Assembly (NCBI RefSeq): GCF_023703085.1
Contig: NZ_JAMQJY010000001.1
Location: forward strand, 2,542,001-2,606,000
Origin: Alkalicoccobacillus plakortidis
GTDB taxonomy: Bacteria; Bacillota; Bacilli; Bacillales; Bacillaceae_D
DNA length: 64,000 nucleotides
Direction: 5' to 3'
Below, piece after piece: positions 37,146-56,031 of the stretch. Each line of letters begins with the position of its first letter. The stretch's first letter is position 1. The notes beneath the pieces were generated by a model. It searched no databases. It saw only the letters and a list, made by a program, of their open reading frames with translations, and had not been told where the DNA came from. A program made the translations under genes and the position numbers.

Positions 37146-37153
37146 TAAAAAAA

Positions 37154-37257
37154 CTTATCTCTCAGAATGAAACATTCTGCAGGAATTAGCACCTTTCATG
37201 TCACACATGATGGTTGCCGGACGTCATCAGGCCTGTCCCTCAGTCACTCTAGATAAG
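37154..37257 (-). ncRNA. SAM-I (S-box) riboswitch
   Basis: On the minus strand the P1 arms CTTATC and GATAAG frame the conserved core: GAGGGAC followed by AGGCCTGATGACGTCCGGCAACC, and GGTGCTAATTCC before the final hairpin. These are the S-box hallmarks (GGCCCGATGAAACCCGGCAACC and GGTGCTAAATCC in the consensus). With the terminator behind it, it should switch mmuM off when SAM is abundant. Confidence 0.93.
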
Positions 37258-37338
37258 ATATTCAATTATATGTATTTCACAATGTTATGAAAGAATTAGA
37301 TATTTGTCAATTGCCATTTTTAAGTTGATCTTTTTTAA

Positions 37339-45660: not shown

Positions 45661-45801
45661 CTACCCCTCACTCGGCAGTCTTCCTGATTGATGCTGATAG
45701 CTTTGGCGATAGACCTTCGGTGTCATCCCTTCAATTTTCTTAAAGGTCGCAACAAAGTTACTGACATCATTAAAGCCCACAAGGAAGGCTATGTTTTTAA
45801 C
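45661..45801 (-). pseudogene. AraC-family regulator, C-terminal remnant
   Basis: Only the second helix-turn-helix of an AraC regulator remains: VKNIAFLVGFNDVSNFVATF then KKIEGMTPKVYRQSYQHQ and a stop. The upstream two thirds are missing, because homology stops at about 45801, exactly where the AT-rich island begins. It lies upstream of the GH35 gene and is the likely former regulator of the galactan genes, cut by insertion or deletion. Confidence 0.85.
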
Positions 45802-45874
45802 GAGACAACTGCATACGCCCAATCTGGCCAGAATACCAGATTTTCTTAATTTCTTAACTTTTATTTTACAGTAA

Positions 45875-47683
45875 TTATTTATTTTTTAAAATCTTATCCG
45901 TTATAAAATTTGTTATTTCAACTAAAAATAATTCGAATTTGTTCTTAGTATCGTTAATATTCGGTATCAGTGGAATCGCACCAATTCCGGGTAATATAGT
46001 TGAACTTTCTTGAAAGTTAATAAATTCGTTTCCTGGATATAAAACATAGGAGCCTAATGATTTATCTATAGCATCTTTGTAGGCGTGCATTTTTACTAGA
46101 TCATCTTTTTTGCTTGTTTTAGTATCTAATTCATGATATTGATTTAATTTTTCGATCCTATATTTCGCATCAAAATGTATATAATAACCATTTTCTCTTC
46201 TAGTACTATCTGAAATAAATATTGTAAAATCAGGTCTTAGTTTTATCGAATATGACTTACCTAAAGTTGTTTGCTTACTAAATTCTTTATTATAGTATAA
46301 ATTAACTTTTATTTTATTTCTTTGGTATACAAGACAACTATTAGTACCCTTTTTTAAATTAAAATTAATACTTCCATTCTCCTGATACCATACATTGCTT
46401 TCTTTATTTTCTGTTCCAAAAATATTCCCTAAAGAGTTCCTAATTATAAAGAAACACCAAATTTCATAAAGTTCATATATAGGTTTAACGTATACGTCAC
46501 TGGTAATTGCCTCGATTGGATTCCAAGATAATGAAAGCCCACTTTGAAGTCTTAAATCCAACAATAATAAATCTTGATATCCCACTCTATTTTGTAATAC
46601 TTGTGAATTTGAAGGAAAATATTTAAGCTTACTTACCTTCCTAAAAATATTATTGTTTAAATAGTCTTCTAAAATCGTAAGCCAACTATTTGTTTCACTA
46701 ATATAAATCTTATAAAGTTTATTTTTACTACTTTTTTTAATAACCAGACGTATCTGACGAACTAGATTATTCACCAGATAGTGTGTTTCTTCTAAGAAAT
46801 TTTTAACGTATCTGTTTTCTACTGTGTCAATTGATTCCTTACTCTGATCAGAAATTATTTTTTGGGGTGTATATCCCCTAAACTTCTTGTTAAGTGTTCC
46901 TCCTACTTGCAAATCCAACACATAAGATTTACTAGTAATACTAGAATAGTCAGAAATATGACCAAACCCAATTGGTTCTAAAATAGATTCCTTATCTATA
47001 TTAGAGTGAATATTATTAAGGATTATATCAATAGCTAAAGGTAACTCTTTCATTATACTTCTTAATTGTATTACTTTACTAAAAATTATCGAATTTGAAT
47101 TATCGTTTAATACCTTCGTACTTGTTAACCCGCTAAATTGCATTATTAAATTGCTAGATTCTTCAGCTATATTATTTAATAATTCACTGTATGAATTTTC
47201 ATAATTTACTTTCTTAGCCGCTACTTCACATAAAAAAGAGTGTCTATTATTTATTGATAAATCTAAGGTACCAACAAAATTTTTAGTATGGAGTTCCCCT
47301 AAAACTTCAATAAATTCTTGCTCATTGATTCTTATTTTTCTCCAAATGTTACTTGGGAACAGTTTAATAAAATGATTTACATAGCTATTAGCAAAAGGAC
47401 TAGAGAAGTCGCTTTCTTCTAAATGTTTTTTTGGAAGTAATATCTTTAATAAATAGGAGGACTCTTCTCTTAGTAATAATGAATGAAACATATTTAGTTT
47501 GGGAATATTATATCCTAATGTCGGAAATTCTTCCTCTTTATTTTCCGCCGATAAATAACCAAAAACATTTGGTTTCGAATCCTCTAATTGAATAATAGAA
47601 CCTTTTTCTCCTGTTATCATCTGAATTTCTAATTGTATGTTAGTATCTTCCCATTTAATAACAAATTGATTTAAAGCCAACAT
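45875..47683 (-). CDS. McrC/DUF2357-like restriction nuclease subunit
   Basis: A 602-aa protein related to McrC/DUF2357 restriction subunits. The C-terminal part has a PD-(D/E)xK nuclease pattern: LRPDFTIFISDS (the Asp) followed by YYIHFDAKYRIEKL (the E/D-x-K pair). The N-terminal half is a long mixed alpha/beta region with no named domain. The McrB-like AAA+ gene lies 10 bp upstream, as in mcrBC, LlaJI and BsuMI systems, so the two should form the cleaving complex. Very AT-rich codon use sets it apart from flanking genes. Confidence 0.82.
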   Translation of the reverse strand: MLALNQFVIKWEDTNIQLEIQMITGEKGSIIQLEDSKPNVFGYLSAENKEEEFPTLGYNIPKLNMFHSLLLREESSYLLKILLPKKHLEESDFSSPFANSYVNHFIKLFPSNIWRKIRINEQEFIEVLGELHTKNFVGTLDLSINNRHSFLCEVAAKKVNYENSYSELLNNIAEESSNLIMQFSGLTSTKVLNDNSNSIIFSKVIQLRSIMKELPLAIDIILNNIHSNIDKESILEPIGFGHISDYSSITSKSYVLDLQVGGTLNKKFRGYTPQKIISDQSKESIDTVENRYVKNFLEETHYLVNNLVRQIRLVIKKSSKNKLYKIYISETNSWLTILEDYLNNNIFRKVSKLKYFPSNSQVLQNRVGYQDLLLLDLRLQSGLSLSWNPIEAITSDVYVKPIYELYEIWCFFIIRNSLGNIFGTENKESNVWYQENGSINFNLKKGTNSCLVYQRNKIKVNLYYNKEFSKQTTLGKSYSIKLRPDFTIFISDSTRRENGYYIHFDAKYRIEKLNQYHELDTKTSKKDDLVKMHAYKDAIDKSLGSYVLYPGNEFINFQESSTILPGIGAIPLIPNINDTKNKFELFLVEITNFITDKILKNK

Positions 47684-47693
47684 AATTAAGCCC

Positions 47694-49178
47694 CTAACTA
47701 ATAAAGGAAGTATAGCCTATATTATTTAATGAAGACCTCATTCTCTCTAATTTTGCAATACTTCTAGGTAAATCAAGATTATTTCTAATTAGTAATGTAT
47801 CAGTATTAGTATTATATTCTTCGGATGATTCTTTAACTGTTAAGCTAGACTCTAAATCCTCAAAAGTCTCTTTTTTTAGAAATTTAATTAACATTTCTAA
47901 TACATCACTTAACTGTCTGCGATTGCCATGCAATTTGGGTAAAACCTTTTGTAGAAGAACATTATCCATATAATCAATCCAATCACTATTTGATTGATTA
48001 TATAATGTTGCGAAGTAAAGATACTCTATAGTTTCTTTAAAGGTTCTATATCCAAAATCAAAGTTCACAATCTTTAATATACTATACATTCCGGAAAGGA
48101 GTATCTCCATTTCTCTTTTTGCTAAGTTAAATCCATCTCGATCTCCCCATTTACTTTCTAGATTTTCCAATAAGTTATTTCCTTGATATTCAATTTCTCT
48201 ATACTCTATGGAAGATTTAAAATGATTAAGGAGTGTGTCTCTATTATATATGACGTCCTCCTCGCCTGGTTTCTGATTAAAGTAGTTCGAAGGATGTTCT
48301 GTCTCTAATTCTATAATATGCGCACGGTCTAATACTTTTGGAGAGAACATATAGGTAGTTTCATCTACATTTACTGTACCAACAATGAATATATTGGGTG
48401 GAAGTGTAATACTTTTATTATCATCCATGAGCAGTTTTGCACTATCTAATATCTTTTCATCTACATTCTCAGACATTTGAAGTGTCTCTAATATAATAGG
48501 TAGATCTGCAAGTTCTATTAAACTAATGCCCTCAGTTTCAGAAGTACTCCGTGCAGCTTCCATCGCTGATAAAAATGAGCTAAAGTATCTTTCTACATGA
48601 GATAAATTCATTTCATCTAAAATTATAAAATGCGGGAGATACTTATTTGTTGGATGTAAAGCCCGCAGAAGTAGTTCTAACATAGGGGTCATTACATAAA
48701 TTGTTTTCCCTTCAGGACCAAAAGGATTAATATAACCAATTAAACTCCTTGTATCAGTCCAGTCTGCGCCTACTGGAATCAGCGCATGTCTTTTTTCAAC
48801 AGGTATTCTTACAGCTGTTCCTAAATTTATCTTCGTGTATCCATCATCATTAATATGATTCCAGAATACCGGATTAATGCAAATGATTTGAGCACTCATT
48901 TCTATTTGAATCTCAAATTCTTTATCATTAATGTGAGCTATAAACACATTTGAATCAATACAGAGTTCTCTAATTTCCTCTTCTGTCTTACTTACTATCC
49001 CTCCCTGTTTATTTATATCTATTTGCACCCATGTGTTTACTTTGTAGCTCTTTTTTTCTAAATTTTCTGCTAACCTAAGTGCTAACCGTGTTTTTCCTGT
49101 TCCTGAATTACCTGAAAGAACAACAAATGGTTTTGCCAATAAAGATACTATATAATTATCTAAAATTCTCTTTTCCAT
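47694..49178 (-). CDS. McrB-like AAA+ NTPase (restriction motor)
   Basis: A 494-aa McrB-type AAA+ protein, the NTP-driven motor that moves along DNA and activates the nuclease subunit. Walker A LSGNSGTGKTRLAL starts near residue 21; Walker B is FIILDEMNLSHVERYF, followed by IFIVGTVNVDETTYMFSPK (sensor-1/McrB signature) and VLDRAHIIEL. Because Walker A is so close to the N-terminus, there is no room for the N-terminal DNA-recognition domain found in E. coli McrB. It is flanked by a winged-helix-like gene (16 bp upstream) and the McrC-like gene (10 bp downstream). Confidence 0.88.
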   Translation of the reverse strand: MEKRILDNYIVSLLAKPFVVLSGNSGTGKTRLALRLAENLEKKSYKVNTWVQIDINKQGGIVSKTEEEIRELCIDSNVFIAHINDKEFEIQIEMSAQIICINPVFWNHINDDGYTKINLGTAVRIPVEKRHALIPVGADWTDTRSLIGYINPFGPEGKTIYVMTPMLELLLRALHPTNKYLPHFIILDEMNLSHVERYFSSFLSAMEAARSTSETEGISLIELADLPIILETLQMSENVDEKILDSAKLLMDDNKSITLPPNIFIVGTVNVDETTYMFSPKVLDRAHIIELETEHPSNYFNQKPGEEDVIYNRDTLLNHFKSSIEYREIEYQGNNLLENLESKWGDRDGFNLAKREMEILLSGMYSILKIVNFDFGYRTFKETIEYLYFATLYNQSNSDWIDYMDNVLLQKVLPKLHGNRRQLSDVLEMLIKFLKKETFEDLESSLTVKESSEEYNTNTDTLLIRNNLDLPRSIAKLERMRSSLNNIGYTSFIS

Positions 49179-49193
49179 TAATCATTGTTCTCC

Positions 49194-49892
49194 TTATTTA
49201 TATGTTGGTACTAAAGGATTCAGTGTACTCAACATATCTACATATTCTTCATGTTGCATTCTCTCATTTTCTTCTGGTAATTTATTTATTATATAGCAAT
49301 TTTTTATTAATTGATCTAATGAATACCTTGAAGTGATTCTATATGTGTCTTTTTCGGAGGTCGCTTCTATAACTTGAGCCTCAACCATCCTATGGAAAAA
49401 GACGTTCACAATTTGACGTTGGTTATCTTGCTTTATTTGCGATAATCTAAATTGCGGTATATTTTTCACGTTATTTTTAGTGATTTGCCCTCCATTTTGT
49501 TTTACTACCATTAAGACTTCATAGAAAGGATGTACTAACTTTCCACCAATTAACTGGTTTAGATTCAATAAATATAATAATAAATACTCACTTCCTAAGA
49601 TCTTACTCTCTAGAAACGACTTTGCTATTCGAGATAATTCATAACTTTCACCTATTTTGGAGCGAAAAACGCCTAACTCTCTCCCCAATGTATATGCGCT
49701 TGACCACTGTTTCTTAGTTCCAATATATTTTTGATGCCCACCCTCAACGTACCTGTCCAACATCTTACCAAACCCTAATATCATTTCTTCTTGAGTTTTA
49801 AATTGATTTGCTGTTTGAGTGTATACCCTGAGTAATGCTCTAAACTCTCTCTTTCTCCAGATATCAAAATATAAGCTCTTATTATCTTTCAT
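49194..49892 (-). CDS. Winged-helix-like protein of the restriction operon
   Basis: A 232-aa protein that I do not recognise as a named family. It is mainly helical and basic, with repeated patterns that look like winged helices: LLYLLNLNQLIGGKLVHPFYEVL..NGGQITK and IVNVFFHRMVEAQVIEAT..DTYRITSRY. In the BsuMI system a third restriction gene (YdiR) precedes the McrB-like and McrC-like genes, and this one holds the same place. Given the short McrB-like partner, DNA target recognition is a reasonable guess. Confidence 0.7.
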   Translation of the reverse strand: MKDNKSLYFDIWRKREFRALLRVYTQTANQFKTQEEMILGFGKMLDRYVEGGHQKYIGTKKQWSSAYTLGRELGVFRSKIGESYELSRIAKSFLESKILGSEYLLLYLLNLNQLIGGKLVHPFYEVLMVVKQNGGQITKNNVKNIPQFRLSQIKQDNQRQIVNVFFHRMVEAQVIEATSEKDTYRITSRYSLDQLIKNCYIINKLPEENERMQHEEYVDMLSTLNPLVPTYK

Positions 49893-50142
49893 CTAGAAAT
49901 CCTCCCTCAATCTTTCTATATGTCAAATAAAATAGTAACAAAATAAGTAAATAAAAACTATTAGTGCAATCCCAGAAATCAACTTTATTTTTATATTTAT
50001 TGCTCTTTCCTTATTTAAACTGTTGTTAATTAATAATTATTTCATTCCTCTTTCTATACTTCTCACTTCACTTTTAGTCTAGTCTATTATGTTTTTAGCT
50101 CACAAAGAAGCCCTGTTTTCAATGGGATCAAATTCCCTTATA

Positions 50143-50743
<601 letters not shown>

Positions 50744-50937
50744 GTTATCACTCCTTAATAGTCGTTTTAAATTATAATTACTCTATTAAAATTTTATCGG
50801 CATATAAGTAGTTATTTTCAAATAGTATTATTAGTGATTACATAATAAGAATTCTTCAGAAACTTTAATTCCATTTTCCATGCAAATCAAATAGTGGTTC
50901 GTATAAGCGTGAGACGCTACACAAACCACTCATTAAG

Positions 50938-51132
50938 TTAATCACTATAGTTACATGAATGCATTAAGGCCTTCTTTGGAGTAGTGTCTAGTAATTTATT
51001 TGATACAAATTCATCATCAAGTTCTTCTTTATACAGAATCATTTTTTCTTCCTCTACTTGCTCTTCATCAATAAATATATTGAATTGTAATGCCATTAAA
51101 ATTGCAAAGTGTTCAACATTGTAGTAATACAT
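50938..51132 (-). CDS. Small protein between methylase and restriction genes
   Basis: A 64-aa acidic ORF (MYYYNVEHFAILMALQFNIF then a DEEQVEEEKMILYKEELDDEF stretch) with AAGGTGG upstream of the ATG. No homology recognised. Size, charge and location between modification and restriction genes would fit a control or inhibitor protein, but there is no HTH, so this is a guess. Confidence 0.45.
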   Translation of the reverse strand: MYYYNVEHFAILMALQFNIFIDEEQVEEEKMILYKEELDDEFVSNKLLDTTPKKALMHSCNYSD

Positions 51133-51244
51133 TGATTTATCCACCTTTTAAATTATTCGTTCAAGAAGTTATTAAACCTAATAATGCTTCCGCACTGTCA
51201 TATCGTTATAAAATTAAGAGAAACGGTAGAAAGGAATGATTTTT

Positions 51245-52489
51245 TCAAATCATTCCTTTCTCTTTAAATAGGTCATAAATGGCACTAGCCAATCTCTTAC
51301 TAAATTCAGGAGGGACAGCATTCCCAATCATTTCATAATTTTGAACCATACTACCTGTGAATTCATAACTGTCATCAAAAGTTTGTAGCCTTGCTGCTTC
51401 TCGAACTGTTATTGATCTAGCTTGGTTAGGATCTGGATGAATATGTCTTAATCCATCTTTTTTTAAATGTGCAGGTATTGTATTACTCGGTTGATCCCAT
51501 CTTAGGACATAATATTTATGGATATTTGATGATTTACCCGTTTTCTCGGTATAAAGTTTTTTAAGATTTTCAGTCGAAAGATACTTATTATTGCCCATAT
51601 TGATATCTTCTGCCAATATCCTGAATATTTCTATATCTCTTCTATTATGATATCTTGGACGATGCCAAGTGTAATCTGTTTCACTGGGAAAATGAGAATA
51701 TTTCCGGCTACCTAATTTATAATCCTCTTCCGATGGTAATAACGCAGGAAGTTTTCCTATTGCATCTCGAACTGTTTTTATTTTATCTGATTTATATCTA
51801 TTTAAAACTTCATTGTAGAAGAACCGAAGAGATTTTTGGTTTTCTTCCATGTTACTTCCAAAGTATTTTCTGTTTAACCCTATTAAAATTATTCTCTTTC
51901 TTTTTTGTGGAACACCAAACTGAGTCAAATCAAGTAAAGCTTGTTCTTTTATATCTTCAACAATATCAAAACCATACTCATTAAATCCTCTTTTAATTTT
52001 ATCTACAATATTTTCACCATCTGGAGCTGCTGATAACATCCCCTCAACATTTTCAAACACAATCAACTTAGGGTTATAGACTTTAACTACTTTTAAATAA
52101 CTTTCGAAAAGATAGTTTCTATAATCATTTTTCATTCCAAATTTATCCTGAATTCTGCCTGCTACTGAATATGCTTGGCAAGGAGGTCCCCCGACAATCA
52201 CATCTATATCTCTATTATTGACTACAGAATTTAGACCAATATGGGAACCATACTCGTCATCGTTTTTCCATCCATTTATTAATTCTTCAGTTCTTTGGAT
52301 ATCAAAATGAAGAACCCTTTTCTCAGCATCTTGATATTGATATGTCTTTTTCAATCTATTTATTAAAGTATCACACGCATAATTCTTCCACTCAACACTA
52401 GCAACTGTATTGTAATGCTTTGCTTTCTCAAAGCCGTCGAGTAGTCCTCCACATCCCACAAATAACTCTAGAGTATTTAATTTAGACAA
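51245..52489 (-). CDS. DNA cytosine-C5 methyltransferase 1
   Basis: C5-methyltransferase of 414 aa. Motif I LELFVGCGGLLDGF, motif IV catalytic GGPPCQAYSVAGR, motif VI FENVEG, motif VIII QKRKRIILIG and the late GNAVPPEFSKRLA (motif X) are all present, with the target-recognition region between about residues 210 and 340. It is 10 bp downstream of methyltransferase 2. Two C5-methylases in one operon fit a restriction system that needs separate enzymes for its two strands or two sites, as in LlaJI and BsuMI. Confidence 0.92.
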   Translation of the reverse strand: MSKLNTLELFVGCGGLLDGFEKAKHYNTVASVEWKNYACDTLINRLKKTYQYQDAEKRVLHFDIQRTEELINGWKNDDEYGSHIGLNSVVNNRDIDVIVGGPPCQAYSVAGRIQDKFGMKNDYRNYLFESYLKVVKVYNPKLIVFENVEGMLSAAPDGENIVDKIKRGFNEYGFDIVEDIKEQALLDLTQFGVPQKRKRIILIGLNRKYFGSNMEENQKSLRFFYNEVLNRYKSDKIKTVRDAIGKLPALLPSEEDYKLGSRKYSHFPSETDYTWHRPRYHNRRDIEIFRILAEDINMGNNKYLSTENLKKLYTEKTGKSSNIHKYYVLRWDQPSNTIPAHLKKDGLRHIHPDPNQARSITVREAARLQTFDDSYEFTGSMVQNYEMIGNAVPPEFSKRLASAIYDLFKEKGMI

Positions 52490-52499
52490 AATATCACCT

Positions 52500-53633
52500 T
52501 CATATGTTCAGTTCTAAGTTCAATTGTTCTATGTCTTTGACTTTTTTAGTTCCGTTTTTTACATCCTGAAAATGTTGATGTATGGCTTTTGCCAAATTAA
52601 AGGATAAAAGAGGTGGAACTGCATTTCCAACCTGTCTGTTCTGTTGTGTTCTCGTACCTAGAAAAACGAAATCGTCTCTAAAAGATTGTAATCTCGCATT
52701 CTCTCTAACTGTTGGCACTCTATTATACTTGTAATGAAAATGATTTCTATGGCCAGTATCAATTGTTCGAGAAGGCTTTTTACTGTTATATCTAGTCCAA
52801 GCTTCATTAAACTTTCTACTATCACCAACACCAGGAGGCAAATCTTTATGATTACCGCCTTCTGGAACCTGACTAATAACCCATTTAACTTGATCTGTAT
52901 GCTTACTAGCAACATGATTATAGAGCTTATTACTATTTTTCCTCATGATTTCTTGATATTGCGATTGAGGTTGCTTTACATATTCATCTTTTTCTAATCC
53001 AAATTCGTTCTCTCTACTTGGTAAATCATTAATTGCTTCGCTACACGTTACATATCTCTCCGGCGTATATTTTGGTTCTGGAAATTCAAAAGATCCGTAT
53101 CCCTTTTCTATTCCCACAAAGAACATTCTTTTTCTCATCTGTGGTACGCCATAATCAGCAGCTAATAATGGTTTAGGTGATACTGATACATTGTATCCCA
53201 TATCCTCAAAAGTATTTATTATCTGTTGTTTAACTGTTCCATTATACAATGTTGCGATTCCTGGTACGTTTTCAATTAAAAATGCTTTAGGTCTAAATTT
53301 CCTAACAGCTTTAACAACTGCTAAATATAGTGTATTTCTTGTATCGTTTATATCTCGTGAGCCCGTTAAAGAAAAACCTTGGCAGGGTGGGCCTCCGATA
53401 ACAATATCAACTTTTTGGTTACCAATACTTTCAGCAATTTCATCAATAGCTTCTTCCTTAGAGAGATCTGCTAATAAGACATCAGAATCCTTGTGATTAT
53501 GCTTAAATGTTTTTAATGCTGCTTCTTCAAAATCGACACCTAGGATCACATTATAATCAGCATCTAGAAATCCCTGTGATAGTCCCCCACAGCCACAAAA
53601 TAGATCTAGTACATTTAATTTGGTTTCACTCAT
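52500..53633 (-). CDS. DNA cytosine-C5 methyltransferase 2
   Basis: C5-methyltransferase of 377 aa: motif I VLDLFCGCGGLSQGF, motif IV GGPPCQGFSLTGSR, motif VI IENVPGIATL, motif VIII MRKRMFFVG and motif X GNAVPPLLSFNLAKA. ATG 53633 is taken as start, with GGAGG eight bases upstream. It is not a recent duplicate of methyltransferase 1, as the two share little beyond the motifs. First methylase gene of the operon. The recognition sequence cannot be read from the protein. Confidence 0.93.
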   Translation of the reverse strand: MSETKLNVLDLFCGCGGLSQGFLDADYNVILGVDFEEAALKTFKHNHKDSDVLLADLSKEEAIDEIAESIGNQKVDIVIGGPPCQGFSLTGSRDINDTRNTLYLAVVKAVRKFRPKAFLIENVPGIATLYNGTVKQQIINTFEDMGYNVSVSPKPLLAADYGVPQMRKRMFFVGIEKGYGSFEFPEPKYTPERYVTCSEAINDLPSRENEFGLEKDEYVKQPQSQYQEIMRKNSNKLYNHVASKHTDQVKWVISQVPEGGNHKDLPPGVGDSRKFNEAWTRYNSKKPSRTIDTGHRNHFHYKYNRVPTVRENARLQSFRDDFVFLGTRTQQNRQVGNAVPPLLSFNLAKAIHQHFQDVKNGTKKVKDIEQLNLELNI

Positions 53634-53973
53634 AGATCTATCCTCCATTCTTTTCATTACGAACATGTATTCCCATCTATTTTAAATATAAATTGAAGTA
53701 TATGCAATCACTAAAACTTAATAATAACATCTTCTAAAAGCATTTAGATAATAATAGAGGAAAGAAGTTATCATTTCTTGCTTATTGATCTCATTAAATA
53801 AATTTTACATCTTATCACCCTTCTTATACTACCTTTCCATTGGACCCATAACAATGGAGTATAGTTGGAAAATGAGAGAACACTTTTATAATATATATTT
53901 ACAACATGTATTTTAAAATTGTCTGGAACTAAAAAAAGCCATGGGTTGTATCCTAACCCATGGCTTCATATTA
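53634..53973. other. Promoter region of the methylase genes
   Basis: Very AT-rich 340 bp between the HNH gene and the methylases. It contains the HNH terminator at 53931-53966 and presumably the methylase promoter; I cannot point to a single convincing -35/-10 pair. Confidence 0.4.
53931..53966 (-). terminator. Terminator of the HNH gene
   Basis: AGCCATGGGTT-gtatcct-AACCCATGGCT is a perfect 11-bp stem followed by a run of T residues on the minus strand. Confidence 0.88.
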
Positions 53974-55222
53974 TTAAATTGCGAATTTTCCAAAAATGTT
54001 ATCCCTGTGATACTTAATCATTTTTAAATCTGGCCAGAAATCTTCATTTTGTGGTAAAAGAAGTTTTTTACGTTCAATGGTTTGCAAGATGTTGTTTTCT
54101 TTCATCTTCTCATGTACTTGTATAGTGAAGTCTTCATTTATTGCAAGAAAACCACGATCAAACGCCCAATGAAGATCTAAGGAAAGTAGGAGTCCATTAG
54201 TAAGATGATCTGACCCTCCAAATTCTTTCCCTTTAATGTGAGCTGCTTGGACGTTTAGTGTATCCCCATACATAATAGAATGTCCAGTGACAGCACATTT
54301 GAAATTATAGGCCTCTAAAACTGCTTTCCGGAATCGACGATCCCTTTTTATTTTTTTTAGTATGGTAACAGTACGGTCTACACCATCTGTTTCCAAGCTT
54401 TGTTTAAGTAAATCAGCTAACGCTTTAGGAGACAATGTTGTTGGGAGCTCTATACCAAATTTTTTATCAACTACTTTCTCATTTAATGTGACAGACTCAT
54501 TCTCTGAATAATTTGATTTATTTTCATCCTCATCAAACATTTCAGTAAATGCTACACCGACAGTAATTAGCTCTAGTGATGGAATTAATGCTGAAGAGCC
54601 TCTTCCTACTTTATAATTATTAATTAGATTTAAAACCTCATCGTAATTTGAACATCCAGGATGAATATAGCCGACTATAAAATCACTGATTGAATTAGGC
54701 GACTTCATCATTAGAATAATATCATTCAAATTTAAATTTCTGATGTAGCTAGAATACATGCGGTATTCAATTCGCCCTTTAGGGTCAGATTTAAAATTTT
54801 TACTGTTGTGGTAATCATATATGAATTCATAAATATCTCCATTTTTACTATCTTTGGCAATTTGTTGAGCTATAAACGCAAAAGAACCTGCCCTTTTAGC
54901 ATTGGGACGAATGCCCAGTTCATTAGATTTTAATACTTTTCCAAAAACTAACCCACTCTCCTTCAATTTTTGCTTCTCGTATTTATCTTTAACTTTTTGA
55001 TACACCTTCTCTTTTGCAACTGGTGTTAAAAGATAATCTTTTTTCTCTAAAAGATTGATAAATTTAATTGGATTTAAAAAATCCTCTAAGTTCAATTGAT
55101 TTTTCATTAAATCTTTGTTTTTTTCGATGCTAATCTCAAGAATCTTGGATACCTGTGCATTCGAGATTTTGTAAAATCTGCGACCTCAGCTATTAATGAT
55201 AAATTTTTTTACTCTTTTCCAT
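53974..55222 (-). pseudogene. HNH endonuclease with N-terminal HTH (two frameshifts near the start)
   Basis: The C-terminal HNH nuclease domain is clear: YNFKCAVTGHSIMYGD, VQAAHIKGKEFGGSD and LLLSLDLHWAFDRGFL hold the Cys/His/Asn residues. At the 5' end ATG 55222 (AGGAGG eight bases upstream) starts MEKSKKIYH; two one-base losses of T (about 55193 and 55171) then separate it from LIAEVADF and YKISNAQVSKILEIS, which looks like a helix-turn-helix, before joining the main frame. Corrected length about 416 aa. Its own terminator suggests expression apart from the methylases. It could be an extra restriction nuclease of the island. Confidence 0.78.
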
Positions 55223-55551
55223 ACAAAACGCCTCCTTATATTTAGCTATCACATCTAAAACAAATAAAAAAACAAACAAGACAGCTTATAAATAGTAATT
55301 TGCTACATTAAGCTATCTAGAATCAATAATTTTTTATGAAATGATGTTTCTATCGTCTAATCCAGTTAGATGTTTGTAACTAGTTTTTTTAAAAAGGCTT
55401 TTCTAACGGAATATTACTTAAAGATTAAATATAATGAGTTAAATTACTTTAGAAGTAACTATGAAGTAATAAACCAAATGAGTTTCAGTAAATTTAATTA
55501 ACCTTTGCAAAAAAATGGTCTTTAAATAACTTTATCTTATAAAAACCTCAC
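55223..55551. other. AT-rich spacer next to rlmH, island boundary
   Basis: About 330 bp of very AT-rich sequence with no coding potential, between the HNH gene and the 3' end of rlmH. It should include the HNH promoter and the right edge of the island. No inverted repeat or second att-like copy is recognised. Confidence 0.45.
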
Positions 55552-56031
55552 CTACTTATGATAAGGCTCCCCCCTATTAATCCTAAACCCCCGATAAACC
55601 TGCTCCACCAATATCAACCGCATCAACTGATGTGGAAAAGTCATTTTAGAAAACGACAGCTTCTCATTCGCTCTCTCTAATACTTTATCGGACAATCCCA
55701 GTGATCCTCCAATGACATAACAGATCTTACTCTTCCCATGCAGGGCGAGCTGGTTGAGGTTGGCTGCTAAATCCTCGGAGGTTTGCATTTTCCCATCTAT
55801 CGCAAGTGCAATGACATGAGCATCCTGTGAAATTTTACTTAAAATACGTTCTCCTTCTTTTTCTTTGATAATTCTCATGTCTTCCTGGCTTAGGTTCTCG
55901 GGTGCTTTTTCGTCGGGGACTTCGGTGATGGTGATTTTGGCGTAGGCACCGAGACGTTTGGTGTATTCGTCGATGCCTTGTTTGAGGTATTTTTCTTTTA
56001 GTTTGCCAACGGTTACGATGGAGATATTCAC
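55552..56031 (-). CDS. rlmH: 23S rRNA (pseudouridine-1915-N3) methyltransferase RlmH
   Basis: SPOUT methyltransferase of 159 aa that methylates pseudouridine 1915 in helix 69 of 23S r[19 protein letters not shown] at the N-terminus, the knot region [18 protein letters not shown], and the C-terminal [20 protein letters not shown] and GEPYHK are diagnostic. GTG start with AAAGGAG upstream. In staphylococci the 3' end of this gene is the SCC integration site; here the last codons (CCTTATCATAAGTAG) keep the same core, because they encode YHK. Confidence 0.97.

Follow-up and report, generated by a model that had tools for sequence, protein, structure and literature searches.

A stretch of 64,000 nucleotides from Alkalicoccobacillus plakortidis (contig NZ_JAMQJY010000001.1, positions 2,542,001 to 2,606,000; in the following the window) contains a genomic island where a McrB-like AAA+ motor and its nuclease lie together with a 232-residue protein, WH232, and two C5-cytosine DNA methyltransferases. 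We consider it likely that these genes encode a restriction-modification (RM) system in which a McrBC-type translocating machine restricts unmodified DNA and WH232 provides the specificity as a separate subunit. The parts are known and the arrangement is new: the DNA reader, normally fused to a McrB-type motor, looks like a separate protein. Among the open-licence PMC papers listed, which were part of the matching ones, no title or abstract beginning described a McrB-like motor whose BpuJI-type subunit is separate. An earlier note, made from the sequence alone, had observed methyltransferases, a McrB-like AAA+ protein, a DUF2357-like nuclease and a 232-aa winged-helix-like protein together, and this was confirmed. 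The core open reading frames (ORFs) are, in window coordinates:

49194 to 49892, minus strand: WH232, predicted stand-alone target-recognition (specificity) subunit, 232 aa.
47694 to 49178, minus strand: McrB-like AAA+ NTPase, 494 aa, with Walker A from residue 23, starting 15 nt after the WH232 stop.
45875 to 47683, minus strand: McrC-like nuclease with DUF2357 and PD-(D/E)XK domains (PF09823 and PF04411), 602 aa.
52500 to 53666, minus strand: M1, C5-cytosine DNA methyltransferase, 388 aa (PF00145, E 6.8e-70).
51245 to 52489, minus strand: M2, C5-cytosine DNA methyltransferase, 414 aa with a TTG start as listed (PF00145, E 2.2e-54).

The earlier note had suggested WH232 as a detached recognition subunit and had named a structure prediction of the protein alone as a check. 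This prediction was run, and the model was found to have over nearly its full length the fold of the BpuJI and BspD6I recognition domains, with two winged-helix units arranged as in BpuJI, i.e., the Type IIS recognition-domain fold (BpuJI/BspD6I/FokI). By sequence and profile no homology between WH232 and Type IIS recognition domains was detected in Pfam or PDB, and WH232 had no match in PADLOC. The suggestion is supported by the predicted fold, by the linkage of WH232 with the AAA and nuclease genes, and by the lack of an N-terminus of about 240 residues in the AAA protein. The WH232 gene was located immediately 5' of the AAA and DUF2357 genes in all six loci read (the window, L002, L003, L004, L005, and L032), with gaps of -8 to 16 nt; for L003 the AAA start was set at the position homologous to the other loci and not at that of the longest ORF. 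The distances between WH232 proteins and those between AAA proteins correlated with a coefficient of 0.956 over 18 pairs, a value reached by none of 2000 permutations, as expected for linked genes.

A fusion of the two proteins was considered as proof of partnership and discarded, as the WH232 profile gave nothing significant against the 120 listed AAA homologues (best E 0.049). Comparison of WH232 with the N-termini of 72 longer AAA homologues by hhalign gave a probability of 0.1%. No fused WH232-AAA form was seen in the genomes, where the matches were in open frames of 232-259 aa; the protein searches for WH232 admit only lengths near that of the query, and fusions could not show there. WH232 had no match in plasmids or phages, and none of 45 pattern matches in viral contigs was a relative.

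The McrB-like protein has no fused N-terminal recognition domain, as the earlier note had claimed: with Walker A at residue 23, it is without the N-terminal extension present in many longer relatives. Walker B reads DEMN (DE at 188-189). The NxxD signature is absent and the protein carries NVDE at 270-273 (N270-V-D272-E273, the NxD type), with N, D, and E invariant in 34 aligned sequences. An insert of about 85 residues (approximately 45-131), in which a family scan of the whole protein gave no family match, was found absent from 83 of the 120 listed AAA relatives, including all 71 in which Walker A lies beyond residue 200. A search of 398 genomes of the class with the AAA model gave 31 matches at E <= 1e-30, distributed over 30 of the genomes. 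In three of these (G000, G031, and G894, the last being the same record as L005) the ORF has 483-503 aa and the match starts at model position 1-3; all three adjoin WH232. The other 28 start at model position 107-129, behind the insert, in ORFs of 520-818 aa. Four of them (L075-L078) and a plasmid relative (L042) have Walker A at 251-452, and the WH232 gene is absent. All 18 AAA proteins of the distance comparison belong to the insert group, and as far as tested the AAA insert and WH232 go together. No further AAA protein of this group was found in 295 genomes of the family of G894, in searches where no more than a few candidates were scored for each genome; absence from the VIA lists was not counted as exclusion of a protein.

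An extreme case of the insert was seen in P0060, an 854-aa McrB relative with Walker A at 42 followed by an insert of several hundred residues. Bacillus sp. ISL-41 (L004, 15369-20241) has a second pair downstream of the WH232 cassette, consisting of an 804-aa AAA-like protein and an 828-aa DUF2357-PDDEXK protein.

The nuclease has its PD motif near residue 483 and DAK at 505, and PD and D(A/S)K were conserved in all seven aligned sequences. DUF2357 was detected in the own genome and in none of 14 control genomes. The McrB-like protein and its partner DUF2357-PD-(D/E)XK nuclease thus constitute a motor-nuclease pairing of the McrBC type. The earlier note had described the gene set as that of BsuMI and LlaJI, which did not hold: the Pfam family of the LlaJI nuclease, RE_LlaJI (PF09563), was not found in the own genome, B. 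subtilis was the sole match among the 14 controls, and the nuclease is on sequence grounds McrC/PcaRCI-like. RE_LlaJI was present in 12 of 199 genomes of the order, and no WH232-like gene was found around the eight of these 12 loci that were read (lowest profile E 0.026, in a 918-aa ORF).

M1 was found in five of the six loci and M2 in all six, counting the window; the contig of L003 ends before the place of M1 and contains M2 only in part. The methyltransferases lie upstream of WH232-AAA-DUF2357 in five of six loci (M2 only in L003, where the contig ends), and in L005 they lie downstream of the restriction genes on the opposite strand. The restriction genes of the window were closest to those of L002 (85, 86, and 79%), whereas its methyltransferases were closest to those of L005 (73 and 67% compared to 62 and 58%). 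Therefore the methyltransferase pair appears to have been exchanged, while WH232 stayed with motor and nuclease; judged from these comparisons, WH232 goes with the AAA and nuclease genes and not with the methyltransferases. The junction of the exchanged methyltransferase module and the restriction module is occupied by the remains of an insertion sequence:

50146 to 50744, minus strand: broken IS21-type IstB remnant in three pieces, between the methyltransferase and restriction modules (PF01695, E 4.4e-14, 1.8e-12, and 6.3e-13).

A shared target was sought from the target recognition domains of the methyltransferases. A segment chosen by eye (M1 267-317, M2 316-360) was strikingly conserved, yet it was discarded as evidence because conservation over the entire motif VIII-IX region does not exceed that of the remaining sequence. 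M1 windows with starts at 256-286 had 83-93% identity to L002, L005, and L026, which was noticed post hoc. The closest plasmid methyltransferase pair (M1 66%, M2 57%) is located on the Lactococcus plasmid p275D (L026, 5762-9181) and adjoins a NgoFVII-type PLD nuclease with a B3-like domain; no motif was deduced from it. In L021 a similar pair (52 and 53%) occurs together with RE_LlaJI. The methyltransferase pair is therefore found with several unrelated nucleases.

The simplest account of these observations is a McrBC-like translocating nuclease that is loaded by WH232 onto unmodified sites. WH232 is the candidate loader because the AAA protein is without an N-terminal reader and adjoins a protein with a reader fold and a similar size (232 compared to about 240 aa). 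M1 and M2 would each methylate one cytosine, one on each strand of an asymmetric site, and thereby mark self DNA. The site is expected to be asymmetric, since there are two C5 methyltransferases, as in LlaJI, and the Type IIS fold reads asymmetric sites, as described for BpuJI and FokI in PMC9240713. WH232, with its two predicted winged-helix units, would bind the site when unmodified and dock on the McrB-like hexamer, taking the position that the fused N-terminal domain has in the relatives, perhaps via the insert at 45-131. The DUF2357 stalk of the nuclease would stimulate the NxD-type NTPase, which would by analogy with McrBC move the DNA, and the PD-(D/E)XK domain with its intact catalytic residues would cut it. 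Predicted structure and gene order lend good support to split recognition as the central idea. The more specific proposal, that WH232, built from a Type IIS recognition domain, sets the loading site as an exchangeable specificity subunit like that of Type I enzymes, with the insert of the NxD protein as its dock, has in our judgement an even chance of being correct.

Several observations weigh against this account. Similarity in a predicted fold is no proof of function, and BrxA, with a related fold, acts in another context. The insert is the fastest-evolving part of the AAA protein (mean identity 37% compared to 63% for the core and 57% for WH232), and it could itself read DNA, with WH232 as a helper, e.g., a loader or assembly factor. 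The distribution of the insert, missing from all relatives with a late Walker A, agrees with this, as does a census of McrBC systems which regards inserts in McrB GTPases as likely to encode specificity domains (PMC11090510). However, the small size of the insert, its lack of a family match, and the far clearer DNA-reader fold of WH232 make this explanation rather unlikely. Whether dock or second reader, the insert may be considered the main uncertainty. An early Walker A is also found outside the WH232 group: a relative encoded on a Kurthia plasmid (L043), where the methyltransferases are of a different kind, has Walker A at 44 but neither the insert nor a WH232 neighbour, and 12 further relatives with Walker A at 13-84, whose neighbours were not read, are without extension and insert. 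Altogether 43 AAA relatives have Walker A before residue 60, and WH232 was indicated on the same contig for only 18 of them.

The exchange of the methyltransferases bears on two more explanations. The fit of the exchanged methyltransferases to the WH232 site is assumed, and the IstB remnant between M2 and WH232, together with methyltransferases from another lineage than the restriction genes, could mean that the system is a degraded, non-working mosaic. We regard this as unlikely, as the five core ORFs are all intact with intact catalytic motifs. A BrxA-like WH232 that mainly supports methylation or recognition on the modification side is highly improbable, because WH232 remains with AAA-DUF2357 when the methyltransferases are exchanged or are located on the other side and strand, as in L005. 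Winged helices and a position just upstream of the restriction genes would also suit a transcriptional regulator (controller protein) of these genes, a role that we find improbable for WH232. We prefer WH232 as the specificity subunit of the McrBC-type machine.

The borders and surroundings of the island are as follows:

45815 to 55552, no strand: island of approximately 9.7 kb, low in G+C and flanked by rlmH and the remnant of an AraC gene, defined by blastn against the same-genus locus L040 and by the G+C drop.
55552 to 56031, minus strand: rlmH, the 3' end of which is one island edge.
45664 to 45814, minus strand: 3' remnant of an AraC-family regulator (PF12833), the other island edge.
53974 to 55107, minus strand: HNH nuclease, 377 aa (PF13391), a neighbour.

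In the direction of transcription the minus-strand order is HNH, M1, M2, IstB remnant, WH232, McrB-like AAA+, and DUF2357-PD-(D/E)XK. Homology to L040 in blastn stops at window position 55553, the rlmH end, and restarts at 45814. The G+C content is 0.27-0.34 within the island compared to 0.42-0.46 in nine of 12 other kilobases profiled; the assembly size is 4.37 Mb. The AraC remnant comprises the last 46 residues and matches residues 240-285 of the intact L040 gene at 97.8% identity over this length. The earlier note had counted the HNH nuclease as a further member of the system. The five other loci were found to be without it, except that L003 starts inside M2 so that the place upstream of M1 is invisible there, and only about the last 145 residues match HNH restriction proteins. 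It is probably, from this distribution, a neighbour and not a core member. A 68-aa ORF between M2 and the IstB remnant (50938-51144) was without a convincing family match.

The contents behind rlmH differ among the five genomes found for the genus, own included (L038-L041 and window 45664-56031 compared), and the site therefore looks like a defence hotspot. At the corresponding site L040 has an AAA_5 gene adjoining a McrC-type (PF10117) gene. The remaining three genomes had no ORF behind rlmH matching any island ORF; an HsdM-type methylase occupies this place in two of them and other genes do so in one. A second exact copy of the rlmH end, as in SCC-type attachment, was not found within the window, and copies with one mismatch were at chance level. 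In Bacillus sp. J37 (L002, 3718-7062) the related cassette likewise lies behind rlmH, beside two large serine recombinases (PF00239, PF07508), and one recombinase ORF, as listed, overlaps the rlmH end. This combination is reminiscent of SCC elements. At the gathering threshold, Rfam gave a single match in the window, a SAM riboswitch (37152-37259, minus strand).

As of 2024 no NxD-type McrB GTPase had been characterised according to PMC11090510, and this compact system with intact genes would therefore be convenient for testing. If the proposal is correct, a McrBC-like motor can be directed to its site by a separate recognition protein, comparable to HsdS of the Type I enzymes. Loading, translocation, and cleavage could then be studied after omission, re-addition or replacement of the DNA reader, and a FokI/BpuJI-fold protein of the BrxA kind would be placed in an RM setting with a McrB-like motor.

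BpuJI, Nt.BspD6I, and FokI have their recognition domain in the same chain as the nuclease, whereas here this predicted fold is encoded by a separate gene adjoining an AAA+ motor. A precedent is BrxA of BREX, a small protein which is likewise encoded on its own and has a DNA-binding fold like that of FokI and BpuJI (PMC9240713; PMC12839542); its partners differ from those of WH232. The partners also differ for SspB of Ssp, a reported nickase related to BrxA. BsuMI has, like the island, two C5 methyltransferases with McrB-like and nuclease subunits. So does LlaJI, with the asymmetric site GACGC; its R1 reads DNA itself via a B3 domain (PMC1459862; PMC12707154), whereas the AAA protein here is without a fused N-terminus. 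CglI and NgoAVII (PMC5737866; PMC4267653) resemble the proposed system in that two different proteins, one of them the ATPase, restrict the asymmetric site GCCGC in an NTP-dependent manner, but that ATPase is DEAD-family helicase-like and not a McrB-like AAA+ protein. McrBC is a Type IV system which cuts only modified DNA and has no cognate methyltransferase, and the methyltransferase genes in all six loci argue against such a system. CoCoNuT systems have a long coiled-coil fused to the NxD GTPase, and the 494-aa model is without such an extension, although no coiled-coil predictor was run. The AAA protein matches PADLOC PDC-M26A at 5.2e-46 and the nuclease PDC-M26B at 5e-5. The NVDE motif (NxD then E) and the association with methyltransferases resemble the methyltransferase-associated McrBC homologues of the NxD branch; sections 6 and 7 of PMC11090510 describe fused or inserted specificity domains and announce a further paper for this group. 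Among characterised restriction pairs, the closest that we know of is PcaRCI of Pectobacterium, an AAA+ GTPase and a DUF2357 nuclease that together with one methyltransferase restrict unmethylated DNA (PMC8989522). The same kinds of genes are found together here, with methyltransferases that are putatively cognate. The two systems differ in that PcaRCI has a single Dcm-like methyltransferase (CCNGG) compared to two here, and in that the DNA-binding domain of its bipartite restriction enzyme is attributed to the AAA protein (PMC8989522), whereas in the island this part would be played by the separate WH232.
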